From Gammaproteobacteria bacterium (GTDB taxonomy: Bacteria > Pseudomonadota > Gammaproteobacteria > Steroidobacterales > Steroidobacteraceae), in the NCBI GenBank assembly GCA_028293745.1, contig JAQGOF010000155.1:1-64000 (forward strand): a stretch of 64,000 nt of DNA. Reading direction: 5' to 3'. A program made the translations under genes and the position numbers. Positions 20,622 through 51,128 of the stretch are shown piece after piece. The notes beneath the pieces were generated by a model. That model did not search any database. It was not told the origin of the DNA and worked only from the letters and a program-made list of their open reading frames with translations. The stretch's first letter is position 1, and each line of letters opens with the position of its first letter.

Positions 20622-23600
20622 ATGACCGATCTCACCCGGCGCCAATTCCTGAAAATAACCGGTGCAACGCTCGCCGGCTCGAGCCTGGCACTGCTAGGCT
20701 TCTCGGCCTCGGTAGCCATTGCCGAAGTCCGCGAATTCAAACTTTCACGTACCACCGAGACACGCAACACCTGCCCGTATTGCGCGGTCGCGTGTGGAAT
20801 CGTGATGTACTCGTTGGGCGATGGATCGAAGAACGCGAAAGCCAGCATCATTCACATCGAGGGCGATCCGGACCATCCTGTCAATCGCGGCACGCTGTGT
20901 CCGAAGGGCGCCGGCCTGCTGGATTTCGTGCACAGCCCGAGCCGTCTGCTGCGGCCCGAATACCGCGCTCCGGGCTCCGACAAGTGGCAGCCCATCTCCT
21001 GGGATGATGCGCTCGGGCGCATAGCCAAGCTGATGAAAGAGGATCGTGACGCCAATTTCGTCGCGAAGACGCCCACCGGCTTGACGGTAAACCGCTGGCT
21101 GACCACGGCCATGCTGGCAGCCTCGGCATCGAGCAACGAAGTGGGTTATCTCACCCACAAGGTGATGCGCAGCTTCGGCGTACTGGCGTTCGATAATCAG
21201 GCGCGTGTGTGACACGGCCCGACGGTGGCAGGTCTTGCCCCGACGTTTGGCCGTGGAGCGATGACGAATCACTGGGTCGACATCAAGAATGCCGATGTAG
21301 TCCTCGTCATGGGTGGCAACGCCGCCGAGGCCCATCCTTGCGGCTTCAAATGGGTCACCGAGGCCAAGGCGCATAACAAGGCGCGATTGATCGTCGTCGA
21401 TCCACGATTCACCCGCACGGCTTCCGTTGCGGACGTCTACGCGCCGATTCGAACCGGGACGGATATCGTGTTCCTGGGTGGCGTCGTCAACTATTTATTG
21501 ACGAATGACAAGATCCAGCACGAGTACGTCAACAACTACACGGATTTGACCTTCATCGTCCGCGAGGATTTCTCATTCACGAACGGCCTCTACTCCGGCT
21601 ACAACGCGGACACGCGCAGTTACCAGCGAGCCACGTGGGACTATGAGTTAGGTGGGGATGGCTTCGCGAAGACGGATCCTTCGCTCGCCCATCCGCGCTG
21701 CGTCTACCAGTTGATGAAACAACACTATGCCCGCTACACGCCGGAAATGGTGGCGCGCGTCTGCGGCACGCCGCAGGACAAGTTCCTCCAGATCTGCGAA
21801 ATGATGGCATCGACGGCGACCCCGACGCGGGCCATGACGATAATGTATGCGCTCGGCTGGACGCAGCATTCGGTCGGATCGCAGATGATCCGCACCGGAG
21901 CCATGGTGCAGCTCCTTCTGGGCAACATCGGTGTTGCCGGCGGCGGCATGAACGCGCTGCGCGGACATTCCAACATCCAGGGACTGACCGACCTGGGACT
22001 GATGTCCGACCTGTTGCCGGGCTATCTCAATCTGCCCGGCGAGAAAATGCAGACCTACAAGGACTTCCTCGCCTCGCACAACTTCAAGCCGCTGCGGCCG
22101 AACCAGCTGAGCTACTGGCAGAACTACGACAAGTTCTTCATCAGCCTGATGAAGGCCTGGTGGGGAGATGCCGCCACCGCGGACAACGACTGGGGATACG
22201 AGTACCTGCCGAAACTCGACAAGTTGTATGACATGCTGCAGTTCTTCGAGCTGATGAACCAGGGCCAGGTGCACGGCTTCATCTGCCAGGGATTCAACCC
22301 CCTTGCTGCGGCTCCGAACAAGGCGAAGTTGAACCTGAGCCTGGCGAAGCTCAAATTCCTGGTGGTCATGGACCCGCTGGCCACCGAAACGTCCGAGTTC
22401 TGGCACAACTTCGGCGAGCACAACGACGTGGATCCGTCCAAGATCCAAACCGAGGTCTTCCGGCTGCCCACCAACTGCTTTGCCGAGGAGAACGGCTCGC
22501 TGACGAACTCTTCGCGTTGGCTCCAATGGCATTGGAAGGGAGCCGAGCCCCCGGGCGATGCGCGCTCCGATCTGCAGATCATGGGCGAGATCTTCACGCG
22601 CATGCGAGCGATGTACCGGACCGACGGCGGCGCTTTCCCCGACCCCATAGTGAACCTGTCGTGGCCGTATGCGAACCCCAACAGCCCCTCTCCAGAGGAG
22701 CTCGCCCGGGAGTACTCCGGCAAGGCGCTCAAGGACCTCGCCGATCCAAAGGATCCGACCAAGGTGACGCGCAAGGCCGGCGAGCAGTTGGCCGGTTTCG
22801 CCGAGTTGCGTAATGACGGCAGCACGGCGAGCGGCTGTTGGATCTTTTGCGGCGCCTGGGGGCCGACCGGCAATCTCATGGCGCGCCGCGACAACTCCGA
22901 CCCGACGGGGATTGGCCAGACCCTCAACTGGGCCTTCTCCTGGCCCGCCAATCGCCGGGTGCTGTACAACCGCGCCTCCTGCGACCCGAGTGGCAAGCCG
23001 TTCAATCCGAGCCGCAAGCTCATATCCTGGAATGGGACGGCCTGGGCCGGCGCTGATGTTCCTGACTTCAAAGCTGACGAAGATCCCACGCATGGTATGG
23101 GACCGTTCATCATGAATGCCGAAGGAGTTGCCCGGTTCTTCTCGCGGATGTTCATGACGGATGGTCCGTTCCCCGAGCATTACGAGCCGATGGAGACCCC
23201 GCTCGCCAGCAACCCGCTCAGTCCGGGCGATCCGCGCACCCTGAACAACCCGGCCGCGCGCGTGTTCGACGATGATCGCAAGGCCTTCGGCAAGCCGGAT
23301 CAGTTCCCCCACGCGGCGACGACCTATCGGCTCACGGAACACTTCCACTATTGGACCAAACATGTACGCCTGAATGCGATCATCCAACCTGAGCAGTTCG
23401 TGGAGATCGGCGACGCGTTGGGCAAAGAGCTCGGCATCGCTTCCGGCGATCGCGTCAAGGTCTCCTCGAACCGTGGCTACATCGATGCAGTGGCCGTCGT
23501 CACCAAGAGATTGAGAGCGCTCCAGGTGGACGGCAAGACGCTGCACCACGTCGGCATTCCCATCCACTGGGGTTTCAAGGGCCTTGCGAAACCCGGCTTC

Positions 23601-29669: not shown

Positions 29670-29766
29670 GGAAGGTACGCGTACCCGGTGGTGCGGCTGG
29701 GCTTCAAACCCGGTATGGGGGCGTCAGCCGCTTCCTGGTAGGTTCGACTCCTGCTGCCTTCCGCCA
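29670..29766 (+). tRNA. selC: tRNA-Sec (UCA anticodon)
   Basis: 97 bases including the encoded CCA. The anticodon TCA at 29704-29706 reads UGA. The 8-bp acceptor stem (GGAAGGTA with TGCCTTCC), discriminator G, long variable arm and TTCGACTCC T-arm match E. coli selC closely. It lies between selB and selD, so the carrier tRNA sits in the operon of its own enzymes. Confidence 0.97.
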
Positions 29767-47841: not shown

Positions 47842-48471
47842 TCACTTGGAGGACAGCTCCAGGCGCCTGATGACAGCCGGAGAGATCGTGAGCTCGTGGT
47901 GGATGGCGGCCACCGCCAGTCCCCCGCGCGCCAGGTGCTCTTCAATGAGTGTGCCCACCAGACGTTGCCCTTCCGCGTCCAGATTGGTGGTGGGCTCATC
48001 TAGCAGCCACAGCGGTGCTGCGATCAAGAGCAAACCCGCCAGCGCCACGCGCCGCTTCTGCCCGGCTGATAAAGTCCTGATCGGCCGATTTCCCCACTGA
48101 TCGGCACCCAATCGCCCCAGTTCGCGATTCATGTCGTGAGTTGCGAGCTTTCGGCGCACACCCACCCAGTAGCGCAGGTTCTCCTCGGCCGTCAAATCCG
48201 GCTTTAGCGGAGGTTCGTGGCCGATGTAAGCAAGATCGGCGTGGAAGGCCTGCAGATCGCGGCGAATATTCTCCCCACCCCAGGTGATCGTGCCCTCTTC
48301 GGGGTACATCAGCCCACTTAACGTCCGCAGCAAGGTGGTTTTGCCGGCGCCATTGCCGCCCGTGATCTGCAGGCACTCCCCTGAATTCACGCAGAGCCTC
48401 ACGCCACGCAGCACGTGTCGATCGCCCCTCCACAGGTGCAGATTCTCGGCTTGCAGGCGGCGCTCGGGCAT
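47842..48471 (-). CDS. ccmA: Haem exporter ATP-binding protein CcmA
   Basis: 209 residues from the ATG at 48471, the usual CcmA length. Walker A GGNGAGKTTLLR, signature LSAGQKRRVALAGLLL and Walker B LWLLDEPTTNLD are intact. ATP hydrolysis releases haem-loaded CcmE from CcmC. First gene of the nine-gene ccm operon. Confidence 0.94.
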   Translation of the reverse strand: MPERRLQAENLHLWRGDRHVLRGVRLCVNSGECLQITGGNGAGKTTLLRTLSGLMYPEEGTITWGGENIRRDLQAFHADLAYIGHEPPLKPDLTAEENLRYWVGVRRKLATHDMNRELGRLGADQWGNRPIRTLSAGQKRRVALAGLLLIAAPLWLLDEPTTNLDAEGQRLVGTLIEEHLARGGLAVAAIHHELTISPAVIRRLELSSK

Positions 48472-48575
48472 GGGCTCTGTAGGGGGTGGAACAATGGCGC
48501 GCGAGTCTCGCAAATTCAGTAGCTTAGCGCCATAAGCACGGGTGTCTACGCGCAGCGTCAGTGACTGCGTTTTTA

Positions 48576-48607
48576 TTGAAACTGCGAGCCGGGACATGGA
48601 TTACAAT
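48576..48607 (+). promoter_or_regulatory. Possible promoter of the tRNA-Leu gene
   Basis: TACAAT at 48602-48607 is a good -10 box, 13 bases before the tRNA. TTGAAA at 48576-48581 could be the -35 box, but the 20-base spacer is long. The AT-rich block is distinct from its GC-rich surroundings. Confidence 0.45.
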
Positions 48608-48655
48608 CCCGCCGCCCGATGCCCGGGTGGCGAAATTGGTAGACGCAAGGGACTT

Positions 48656-49358
48656 GAGCAATTTGAGCACCCGGTTCGGAAACGGCCGGAGTGAATGGGG
48701 TCAAATTCGGGGAACCAGCCCCACCGCTTACCGCGGTGACTGCAATCCCGAGCTAAGCCCTTGGGAGCGTCTCTTACTCCGGTAAGTCGGAGTGAGGGCG
48801 TGGCAATTCGGACACAACAAGCGCAGGTTTTCGAGACGATTGTCCTTGTTGTTTCCGTTGACGTGGTCGAGTTCGAGCGGGATCGGCTGATCTAGCCAGA
48901 CCTGCAAGCCACAGCCGACACAGACCGGTGCCAACACACCTTGTTTGATGAGCCGGTTCTTGAGCTTGTAGGACTGAATGGGTCGAGCGCCCTCGAGATA
49001 CCGCTACAGCGGTGTTTTGGGCGAAAGTTGCCGATTACGACTCCATGCCCGGCCGAGGAAATGCGATGTATCGAATCCAAGGCTTTTGAGCTTGGTGCGA
49101 AGTACGTCGTAGTTGCCACCATACGGCGCGACGCTTAGTTTGGCGAGAACTTGCCGCATCGAGGTTGACGTTTGTACGGCCTCTTGCAGCTGTTCAGCCG
49201 TGTACTTCGGTCGTCGCATTTAGGCTCCTGGGAAAGTGTAGAGACTTGACGGCCCCTGCCTAACGTTCAGTGTTACATGGCACTTGGACCACGGCAAAGA
49301 GAAAGTCCAGACTCCAAATGAGTCGTAAGACCCAGCAGCGAAAGCTGTAGTGAGTACG
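48656..49358 (+). mobile_element. Group I intron in tRNA-Leu(UAA)
   Basis: 703 bases. The 5' exon ends in U and the intron ends in G, as group I splicing requires. Core elements are in order: P-like TCAAATTCGGGGAACC (48701-48716), Q-like GCAATCCCGAGCTAAGCC (48742-48759), R-like GTGTAGAGACTTGACGG (49236-49252) and S-like AAAGAGAAAGTCCAGAC (49296-49312). GACT in R can pair with AGTC in S to form P7. The wording is close to cyanobacterial tRNA-Leu introns (subgroup IC3, by comparison from memory). P1 can form between exon CTT and GAG at 48665-48667. The space between Q and R holds a reverse-strand HNH frame. Confidence 0.9.
48728..49219 (-). pseudogene. HNH homing endonuclease frame, antisense inside the intron, with one in-frame amber stop
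   Basis: A single frame of 163 codons plus stop is interrupted only by TAG at 49004-49006 (codon 72). The first part (MRRPKYTAEQLQEAVQTSTS, GGNYDVLRTKLKSLGFDTSHFLG) is the helix-turn-helix-like DNA-binding part of this family. The second (QSYKLKNRLIKQGV, CVGCGLQVW, PLELDHVNGNNKDNRLENLRLLCPNCHA) has an intact HNH/zinc core. Without suppression only the N-terminal 71 residues are made from its ATG. The end of the frame overlaps intron element Q on the opposite strand. Confidence 0.85.
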
Positions 49359-49523
49359 AAAATCCCTCGGAGGCGACTCCATGCCGGTTCGAGTCCGGCT
49401 CCGGGCACCATCAGGACTTATGACGACATCTGTCGAGTCCAATTCAACCGGGTTCGCTTGCCAGCAGCTCAGCCAACCTCTGCGTATTCGATGCGATTGC
49501 GCCCGGCGCACTTGCGCCGCGAA

Positions 49524-51128
49524 TCAGCTCGCTGGCGAACGCAGGACGCGGATCTCCCGCAGGGGCGATCTGACGAGGGTGCCCTCTGCTGCTCCCCTCG
49601 GTATGAGCTTCAAAGTCATTCCCGGTGCCAGGCCCGCCGGTGGCACGCTGCAGCCTGGATTCATTCGATAGCTCAAAGCTACAAACAACAGGCTCTCGTT
49701 CTGATCGCCCAATGCGTGCGTGAAGTCATCGTTGACCACGCAACCGGGTAACGTTGCGCTGCTTCCGCTGCTCGTGCTCATGGCCGTACTGGGAGTAAAG
49801 CCGTCCGGATAATCCCCGAAACTGCGCGCATTCACGCCGCTGAACTGAATGCTGAAATAAGTGGTCCCGCAGTTGTCGGCCGGATGGAATCCATAGGGCT
49901 TGCCGCAGGTCGTCGTCCCGATCTGAATGACCTGTACACCGACGCCTTGCAGGCCGTTGATGACCGACTCGCTGGCCGAGCAGGTGCCACCGGTCGTGAG
50001 CACGAAAACCCGTTGCAGGCCGAGATTCGGCAGCGGCTGGCCGCTGGCCACAGACAGGCCGAGCGTCGTGTTGTGAAATGCCGTTGGCGTAATGGCGCTG
50101 CCGGTTACCGGATCCGTGCTCGGATGCTTTGAATTGAACCGCAGCAGCTCAAATGTCTGCCCGCCGGTCATGTTGGTGTCGGCGATCATGTAGGCAAGCT
50201 CGCTGGCGATATCCAGGTAGCCGCCACCGTTATACCGAATGTCGAGCACGAGATCCTTCACCGCGGCTGCCTTCAAGTTGTTCACCGCGGTGACCAGCTC
50301 CGTTTCGGCCTGCGCAAGCTGATTGTTGAATAACAGGTAGCCCACTGTGCCGGTGGCGGTCGAAATCGTCTGCACGTTGGGAACCGATTTCGAGGTGACA
50401 CTGGCCGCCTGCAAGGTGACCATCCGCGGGGTCGTGGAGCCAAGGTCCTCGACCTGAAACGTGTGGGTCTCGCCGGCCGCCGTCGGCGTCAGTCCTGCAT
50501 TGAGCTTGTCGATGCCCGCGGTATCGGTAACGTTGATGTCCGTGCCGTCGACTGCCAGGATCGTGGTGCCACGCGCGAGGCTTGCGGGCGCCTGGCTGGC
50601 CGCGGATCCCGGCTCGGTGAATGCGATCACTACCCTCCTGGGCGGGCTTTTCTGGACAATGTCGAATTGCACTCCATAACCGACATCCGTATTGGATTGC
50701 GAAAGCGATTCCCACACGGAGGTCTGGTAGGTAAAGTGAAACTTGTCTTTGGCGCCACCCGAGGCCGTCGTTGCAGAGGTCTTCAGCAACGGGAAGTAGT
50801 TGCTGGTCGTGTACTGGGACGGGTTGAGGTCAGGGACCTCGCTGTACCACAGGTACGTGTCGTTGGTCCACGATCTCAGCCAGTTGTTCTCATCCGTGCT
50901 CGACCCCGCCATGTCGGGATACGCGCTGTGCGTGAGGGGATCCGTTCCTGACCGGGGGGATAGGCACTTTGCCGCGAAAGTGGCTGCTGGCATGTATACG
51001 CCCGCAGTGTAGGTGTTGCCGGTGGTTGATCCGCCGCCACCACCACCGCCGCCGCCGCAGGCGGAAATTCCAGCAAGAGTGACTGAGGTGAGTAACGTTA
51101 CCGCAACCAGGCTATTGCGCAGGATCAT
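49524..51128 (-). CDS. S41-family peptidase lipoprotein
   Basis: 534 residues from the ATG at 51128, with AAGGA eight bases upstream. A lipoprotein signal (TLLTSVTLAGISAC) is followed by nine glycines. Then come a tail-specific-protease N-terminal region (WLRSWTNDTYLWYSEVPD), a PDZ-like part with VVIAFTEPGSAASQAPASLARGTTILAVDGTD split across residues ~170-215, and the S41 core. The catalytic Ser is in TGGTCSASESVING and the Lys in TCGKPYGF. It is probably surface- or periplasm-anchored. The physiological substrate is unknown. Confidence 0.87.
   Translation of the reverse strand: MILRNSLVAVTLLTSVTLAGISACGGGGGGGGGSTTGNTYTAGVYMPAATFAAKCLSPRSGTDPLTHSAYPDMAGSSTDENNWLRSWTNDTYLWYSEVPDLNPSQYTTSNYFPLLKTSATTASGGAKDKFHFTYQTSVWESLSQSNTDVGYGVQFDIVQKSPPRRVVIAFTEPGSAASQAPASLARGTTILAVDGTDINVTDTAGIDKLNAGLTPTAAGETHTFQVEDLGSTTPRMVTLQAASVTSKSVPNVQTISTATGTVGYLLFNNQLAQAETELVTAVNNLKAAAVKDLVLDIRYNGGGYLDIASELAYMIADTNMTGGQTFELLRFNSKHPSTDPVTGSAITPTAFHNTTLGLSVASGQPLPNLGLQRVFVLTTGGTCSASESVINGLQGVGVQVIQIGTTTCGKPYGFHPADNCGTTYFSIQFSGVNARSFGDYPDGFTPSTAMSTSSGSSATLPGCVVNDDFTHALGDQNESLLFVALSYRMNPGCSVPPAGLAPGMTLKLIPRGAAEGTLVRSPLREIRVLRSPAS
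51031..51059 (-). repeat. GGN trinucleotide tract encoding a polyglycine linker
   Basis: On the coding strand this is a run of GGC/GGT codons directly after the lipidation Cys of the S41 peptidase. Triplet slippage would change linker length without changing the frame. Confidence 0.7.

Follow-up and report, generated by a model that had tools for sequence, protein, structure and literature searches.

A broken antisense HNH gene in the P6 loop of a group I intron that splits tRNA-Leu(UAA) in a gammaproteobacterium

A tRNA-Leu(UAA) gene of a gammaproteobacterium is split inside its anticodon by a group I intron of 703 nt; in the P6 loop of this intron, and antisense to it, lies an HNH endonuclease gene that is broken by one amber codon. 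The whole stretch of DNA that was analysed, 64,000 nucleotides long, is referred to below as the window. As far as its sequence can tell, we are dealing very probably with an old tRNA intron that harbours a decaying homing gene, which would most likely still be spliced and would have no mobility through an enzyme of its own. The intron as such belongs to a known class, and what is new is the antisense HNH arrangement at a fixed place of the ribozyme. The coordinates of the features are collected in Table 1.

Table 1. Features of the interrupted tRNA-Leu(UAA) gene in the window
Feature	Position	Strand	Basis
5' exon of tRNA-Leu(UAA), ending C32 U33 U34	48621..48655	+	ARAGORN (joined exons; window with introns allowed)
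Group I intron of 703 nt, ending in G at 49358	48656..49358	+	ARAGORN, model R1, homologues
Guide triplet GAG, can pair with exon CUU (P1)	48665..48667	+	read in the sequence
P3 5' strand, pairs with 49251-49256	48697..48702	+	P3 changes in alignment A1
HNH endonuclease gene, 163 codons, one in-frame TAG	48728..49219	-	profile match, Pfam, PHROG
Element Q, covering the P4 3' strand and the beginning of P6	48742..48757	+	
P6 stem-loop, enlarged by the insert	48758..49234	+	
Amber codon (codon 72) splitting the HNH gene	49004..49006	-	
Ribosome-site-like AGGAG, shortly before the HNH start codon	49225..49229	-	consensus resemblance only
Element R; P7 5' strand 49243-49247; P3 3' strand begins at 49251	49235..49252	+	
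Element S; P7 3' strand 49303-49307	49302..49312	+	
3' exon of tRNA-Leu(UAA), CCA encoded	49359..49410	+	ARAGORN

A previous sequence-only reading of this DNA had proposed a leucine tRNA gene broken after U34 by a 703-nt group I intron. Its boundaries proved exact to the base, by reading of the sequence and by ARAGORN, which with introns allowed returns exactly 48621-49410 with a 703-nt intron. The joined exons do rebuild a leucine tRNA: they fold as an 87-nt molecule typed tRNA-Leu(TAA) by the same program. The ARAGORN boundaries likewise place the insertion inside the anticodon, between U34 and A35. The elements Q, R and S and the U and G ends described in that reading are present in the window sequence. 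The group I signature of a 5' exon U paired with a guide G and of an intron-terminal G is found here as CUU facing GAG and as G 49358, and in P1 of the window U34 forms a wobble pair with G at the 5' splice site. ARAGORN run without introns does not detect the tRNA-Leu(UAA) of the window, and a promoter scan of 48400-49700 gave no sigma-70-like promoter (0, with 0.4 expected in shuffles).

The self-splicing route of group I introns consists of two transesterifications. Here, the ribozyme would dock the exon CUU on the guide triplet GAG after transcription, and guanosine would attack after U34. In the second step the freed U34 would attack behind the terminal G (49358), joining the exons into a normal tRNA-Leu(UAA), the reader of UUA codons. 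From the analysis as a whole we infer that the window intron would indeed be spliced in the cell. The window contains 30 TTA codons, in 14 of its 34 long ORFs (ORFs picked mechanically). It had been pointed out that a second, uninterrupted tRNA-Leu(UAA) gene would speak against this reading; none was found in the 91%-complete genome of the window (G000, 6.9 Mb), where a search for the exon-1 pattern that tolerated as many as 3 mismatches matches this place only. The isoacceptors CAA, UAG, GAG and CAG are present once each, uninterrupted. It would be conceivable that the interrupted gene is dead and that an intact copy sits among the sequence missing from the assembly, the genome being 91.01% complete and spread over 259 contigs. 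This is however very improbable, given that each of the five leucine isoacceptors was found once, that the exons and core of the window look undamaged, and that 28 orthologues in the genus are typed tRNA-Leu(UAA) by ARAGORN.

Recognition of the intron by general models is poor. The covariance search with the Rfam model Intron_gpI (RF00028), suggested as a check along with the sequence-only reading, gave no match in the window at the gathering score, and no group I match turned up in the Rfam search of 48400-49600 at E<=5 either. Such genomes seem to lack a tRNA, because both ARAGORN without introns and the Rfam gathering score miss the intron. The gathering score is a library threshold and not a feature of the class, and RF00028 suits this lineage badly even without the insert, since ORF-less relatives also score below it. 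A DNA search of 40 genomes, that of the window included, had yielded ORF-less introns in 11 of them, ten with both tRNA halves (229-334 nt, L002-L011) and one, L012, with the 3' tRNA half only, at a contig end. Against a gathering score of 50 bits, RF00028 reached 37.3 bits on L010 and 28.9 bits on L011, and found nothing in the other nine. As a side observation, a sub-threshold match to LOOT RNA (RF03000, 31.1 of 46.4 bits) covers the 3' half of the intron in L010 (1678-1798); LOOT RNA may be related to group I introns.

A covariance model of the lineage itself, named R1, was built from alignment A1, which holds 37 of 55 ORF-less introns shorter than 262 nt after a likeness filter and leaves the window out. 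The core, for which scoring by a covariance model had been named as a check, is matched by R1 in both of its halves, at 49079-49367 (85.9 bits, E 9.4e-29) and at 48647-48847 (78.1 bits, E 4.6e-26), these E-values being rough. Each piece corresponds to one core half, and the insert supplies the rest of the match. The P6 stretch measures 8-49 nt in most ORF-less relatives, against 478 nt between Q and R in the window.

RNAalifold recovered P1, P2, P3, P4, P5, P6, P8 and P9 from A1, and P7 was added to give a tested structure of 60 pairs. Of 2186 cells, 96.8% are paired (82.4% in shuffles), both sides have changed in 40 of the 60 pairs (24.1 in shuffles), covariation is 0.410 (0.146 in shuffles), no shuffle out of 500 is as high on any of five measures, and structures slid along the alignment pair in 32.8-46.6% only; these controls flatter the structure, since it comes from the same alignment and since the shuffles do not keep relatedness. 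P1 (columns 7-9 with 38-40) is paired in all 37 relatives. P3, however, has all cells paired (100%) and both sides changed in 4 of 6 pairs, and entire pairs are flipped in the two rows with Bacteroidota titles (L024 and L101) relative to the gammaproteobacterial ones. The conserved core of P3, P4, P6, P7 and P8 is thus present across the 37 relatives with supporting pair changes, except that P7, being invariant, is neither backed nor contradicted by covariation. Most A1 rows have GAAA loops on P2 and P9.

The intron is widespread. When named genome contigs were scanned for a pattern of the R and S elements, at least 118 loci came out; among the 118 listed, all but 9 have titles that name Proteobacteria, Gammaproteobacteria or a taxon within them. 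ARAGORN typed 112 of the listed loci with an intron, 106 of them as Leu(UAA), and made no call in 6; L046, L119 and L138 have the same exon ends and are taken as tRNA-Leu(UAA) with shifted boundaries. The ORF-less intron is found in named strains, namely Steroidobacter agaridevorans, Peristeroidobacter soli and Peristeroidobacter agariperforans (L122, L032, L131). Related introns were also observed in Bacteroidota-titled contigs (L024, L026, L065, L084, L101). In a sample of the class (completeness of at least 90%), R1 matches 55 of 276 genomes and 49 of 216 genera, and weak matches may be lost there because the search filters are stricter above 40 genomes.

Within the genus, R1 matches 52 of 58 genomes at E<=0.001, in 100 places which fall, by hand count, into three score groups. 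The 28 places at 220-247 bits are all typed tRNA-Leu(UAA), so that 28 of the 58 genomes have the full-length intron in this gene. The 34 places at 122-145 bits include 7 distinct typed loci, all tRNA-Leu(CAA), and the 33 at 41-67 bits include 13 typed loci, all CAU tRNAs after recutting; three partial matches and the two window pieces make up the rest. The genome of the window has introns in Leu(UAA) and in a CAU tRNA, its tRNA-Leu(CAA) being uninterrupted.

The introns of these other tRNAs deserve mention in their own right. Those of tRNA-Leu(CAA) follow C34 in 7 of 7 distinct typed loci, all of genus mates (L178, L179, L183-L187), and a C-G pair with the guide GAG would replace the usual U-G wobble at the 5' splice site; natural C-G pairs at this position are rare. 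For the third class, the ARAGORN label tRNA-Gln(CTG) was rejected, since a cut after CAU gives a CAU tRNA in 13 of 13 loci (12 cut initially, L196 recut). This tRNA is Met according to ARAGORN and is taken as Ile2 by its sequence and intron place, and the genus introns in tRNA-Ile2(CAU) lie after U36, with guide GUG. The second group I intron of the window's genome, 262 nt long, belongs here (L180, G000:C36:2303-3382). R1 also matches introns that ARAGORN places in Arg(CCU), Arg(UCU) and Tyr(GUA) tRNAs of the class (L217, L218, L221, L225, L228). Elsewhere in the window, a SECIS_3 element (21207-21265), a tRNA-Sec (29670-29762) and long ORFs between them perhaps form a selenocysteine locus.

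Comparison of the same locus in relatives lacking the intron had also been proposed, and could be made. The heme exporter gene ccmA lies beside 26 of the 29 distinct filled loci of the genus other than the window (L150-L177 and L012, nine of which are repeated as L002-L010). It was not seen beside L159 and L175 despite full-length stretches, and L012 is cut by the contig end. The window locus adjoins ccmA too, and three intron-less sites occupy the same place beside this gene (L013-L015, in genomes G003, G013 and G021). The intron is therefore an optional resident of one orthologous gene, as both filled and empty sites adjoin ccmA.

An intron tree of 107 rows was computed with the P6 stretch left out; L026, L038, L065, L113 and L123 (unfit exon pattern) and L105 (length) were not included, and 14 of the 104 inner branches are starred. 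The window intron groups with L091 and L125, both from genus mates, on an unstarred branch of support 92, near the introns of Peristeroidobacter and Steroidobacter. This bears on the origin of the intron, for which the sequence-only reading, having rightly taken the host for a proteobacterium (it is a gammaproteobacterium of the Steroidobacteraceae type), had left two options, a transfer or an under-sampled proteobacterial branch. A recent horizontal acquisition by the host, for example from cyanobacteria, would fit with tRNA-Leu(UAA) also hosting the cyanobacterial and plastid intron (PMC4033280), and with the window being the sole HNH bearer among the 58 genomes of the genus. In its recent form it is nonetheless disfavoured, and we consider it highly unlikely: the nearest introns are those of the genus mates, then those of Peristeroidobacter and Steroidobacter, about half of the genus (28 of 58) has the intron, ccmA adjoins nearly all filled loci as it does the window, and related introns occur across the class sample. 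The branch option is the one that fits, given the at least 118 mostly proteobacterial loci and the 55 of 276 class genomes.

The HNH gene accounts for the size of the window intron, to which the insert adds 0.47 kb; it lies in the P6 loop, antisense to the tRNA. The family profile matches it at E 1.5e-71 over 48761-49219 with one TAG, and past this homology the frame continues through Q, where it meets no stop. Both pieces match phrog_10822, and the C-terminal piece, which has the cysteine pairs and the HNH residues, exceeds the Pfam cut-offs of HNH and HNH_3. All NCBIfam matches stayed well short of that library's cut-offs, phmmer against solved structures returned no HNH homing enzyme (best E 0.022 for SPT6 and 0.36 for McrA), no kin of the N-terminal piece was found in viral contigs, and the genome holds no further HNH copy at E<=1e-20. 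With its in-frame TAG the reading frame is not intact and the window HNH is a decayed copy, although the amber codon, known from a single assembly, could be an assembly error. An open frame opposite a structured RNA, and a broken one at that, might raise the suspicion of chance. That explanation is already refuted by the strength of the family profile match, by the Pfam and PHROG matches of the two pieces, by 18 intact kin among the loci listed, and by the low dN/dS of the two usable kin pairs. The novelty had initially been sought in the host and in the internal ORF: the host turns out not to be unusual for such an intron, and the ORF fails as an intact sense frame but stands as an HNH gene with intact kin.

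An intact antisense HNH gene in P6 occurs in 18 of the 118 loci listed, always on the strand opposite the tRNA (18 of 18). It encodes 154 aa in 17 of these 18, and 17 of 18 also terminate with CTTAG, which is complementary to the CTAAG of core element Q; the exception in both respects is L124, on an Acidobacteria-titled contig. In these 17 kin, then, the strand complementary to the ribozyme core supplies the HNH stop codon. L047 has an ATC at the aligned start, which leaves its true start codon in doubt. Identity of the proteins to the first of them is 56-76%, with invariant HNH and cysteine residues, and the guide, both P3 strands, the S element and the terminal G are found in 18 of 18 HNH-bearing introns (the window counted in and L123 left out). 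Only two of 153 pairs have dS below 1.5, and their dN/dS is 0.07 and 0.14; on these sequence comparisons the gene looks to be kept by selection in the relatives. One intact kin matches the phrog_10822 profile over nearly its full length and finds 237 phage records, all below 60% identity, the best listed at 50%.

In the class sample, HNH was found at E<=1e-20 in 6 of 276 genomes (G000, G153, G181, G232, G285, G306), in all six antisense across the gap between two R1 pieces (coordinates compared by eye), intact in four and broken in G000 and G285. This sample overlaps the named loci, as G181, G153 and G232 resemble L021, L025 and L030 in intron length and first bases. Other two-piece R1 matches, in G159, G166, G178 and G272, are without HNH at this threshold, and other inserts may exist there. 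Decay is seen outside the window as well. Remnants with an internal deletion are present in L056, L099 and L094, and L105 has a near full-length but broken antisense HNH gene in P6 (nhmmer and hmmsearch, with 0 nhmmer matches in shuffled copies). Eight loci were further aligned with the window: L094 is clear (0 of 500 shuffles as high), L117 and L049 are weak (5 and 18 of 500), and L064, L111, L128, L103 and L055 are not significant. Some loci stand apart. L105, a 1099-nt intron on an Acidobacteria-titled contig, has in addition a sense HNH-like frame before Q, and in L065 (Bacteroidia-titled) an HNH-kin frame is also on the sense strand before Q. The antisense HNH frame of L038 is cut by a doubtful ARAGORN boundary, and an HNH-bearing intron (L051) lies in a contig titled as a Klebsiella pneumoniae MAG, a title that looks doubtful.

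How the HNH gene came to be in this intron can be approached by comparing the two histories. It may have descended with the intron and been lost elsewhere, or it may have entered P6 separately and late, to which we would give not quite an even chance. A late entry is suggested by the branch of 33 rows (support 98) to which the window intron belongs and where no other full HNH is found, by HNH being present in the window's genome only, out of 58 in the genus, and by the 14 changes in HNH presence over the 107-row intron tree, on which gains and losses are indistinguishable. The identical P6 position and strand of the 18 intact copies also suit an old descent followed by repeated loss, which is favoured by the internally deleted remnants and perhaps by the genus member L117, which is remnant-like at 5 of 500 shuffles, with eight loci tried. 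The intact copies are besides slightly clustered on the tree (13 changes for a shuffled mean of 16.0, 5 of 500 as low), and HNH and intron distances are weakly correlated over 17 sequences (Mantel r 0.40, 44 of 5000 permutations as high), the correlation falling to r 0.21 (437 of 5000) without one long branch. Co-inheritance of HNH and intron, as read from these sequences, is thus not firm.

Whichever way it arrived, an intact HNH enzyme would be expected to cut intron-less tRNA-Leu(UAA) alleles, and repair would then copy the intron in. We infer such homing, through HNH cleavage of the empty tRNA gene, from the position of the gene, its conservation, the few low dN/dS values and the empty sites. 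The HNH gene would probably have spread the intron at one time in this manner. Present mobility of its own is unlikely for the window intron, barring help in trans, because its HNH gene is broken. The HNH mRNA and the ribozyme are different RNAs, since the gene is on the opposite strand. One could go further and see in the antisense HNH gene a recurring module that enters and leaves P6, re-mobilises old immobile introns repeatedly and is interlocked with the core through its stop codon; this is a tentative proposal, which we would sooner doubt than accept. If it were true, the antisense placement would spare the ribosome and the ribozyme a competition for one RNA, and the window would be a copy whose function is lost and whose sequence is not yet lost. 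Broken, deleted, absent and intact HNH genes side by side make the cycle of homing-gene invasion, decay and loss testable, and this in bacterial chromosomes, at a single-copy tRNA gene.

Several known systems come close. The intron of Azoarcus tRNA-Ile(CAU), of subgroup IC3, is presumably similar, with GAAA loops on P2 and P9, a P1 of 3 bp and elements Q, R and S. Its host is tRNA-Ile(CAU), compared with tRNA-Leu(UAA) in the window, and we know of no endonuclease gene in it. The tRNA-Leu(UAA) intron of cyanobacteria and plastids is, we take it, also inserted after U34. Like the window intron, it is a group I intron of the same tRNA (PMC4033280); the window differs by its gammaproteobacterial host and by the antisense HNH gene in P6. 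The same review of tRNA gene diversity (PMC4033280) places most bacterial tRNA introns at 37/38 and names cyanobacteria, alpha- and beta-proteobacteria. According to the tRNAscan-SE 2.0 paper, the tRNA-Ile2 genes of Acidovorax and Burkholderia contain group I introns (PMC8450103). A review of bacterial group I introns gives reference titles on tRNA-Leu introns, and its main text, as far as accessible, contained none of the words HNH, antisense or proteobacteria (PMC3984707). Further sources on the subject are an intron database (PMC11835236) and a paper on I-PfoP3I (PMC3428280).

Other gammaproteobacterial hosts are the Beggiatoa-type bacteria. An interrupted tRNA-Leu-TAA gene with a putative group I intron, as in the window, is found in Thiomargarita and BOGUAY, and a tRNA-Arg-TCT intron occurs in these bacteria too (PMC4853749). 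The interrupted Leu gene is about 350 bases long, and the accessible part of that paper describes no HNH gene and leaves the intron type undetermined (PMC4853749). On the side of the endonucleases, those of phrog_10822 are phage genes, whereas the kin described here are intron-borne and antisense. The literature, searched by titles and abstract openings with few subscription papers, and hence weak as evidence of absence, yielded no paper on a bacterial tRNA intron with an HNH gene antisense to it. The arrangement as such has a counterpart in eukaryotes: according to PMC3679873, Didymium S956-2 and other nuclear rDNA group I introns have antisense endonuclease genes, on the strand opposite the ribozyme and with P6 among their places, as in the window. 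Those cases are nuclear and eukaryotic; here, the host gene is a bacterial tRNA, the endonuclease is of the HNH type, and its stop codon is supplied by the strand complementary to the ribozyme core.
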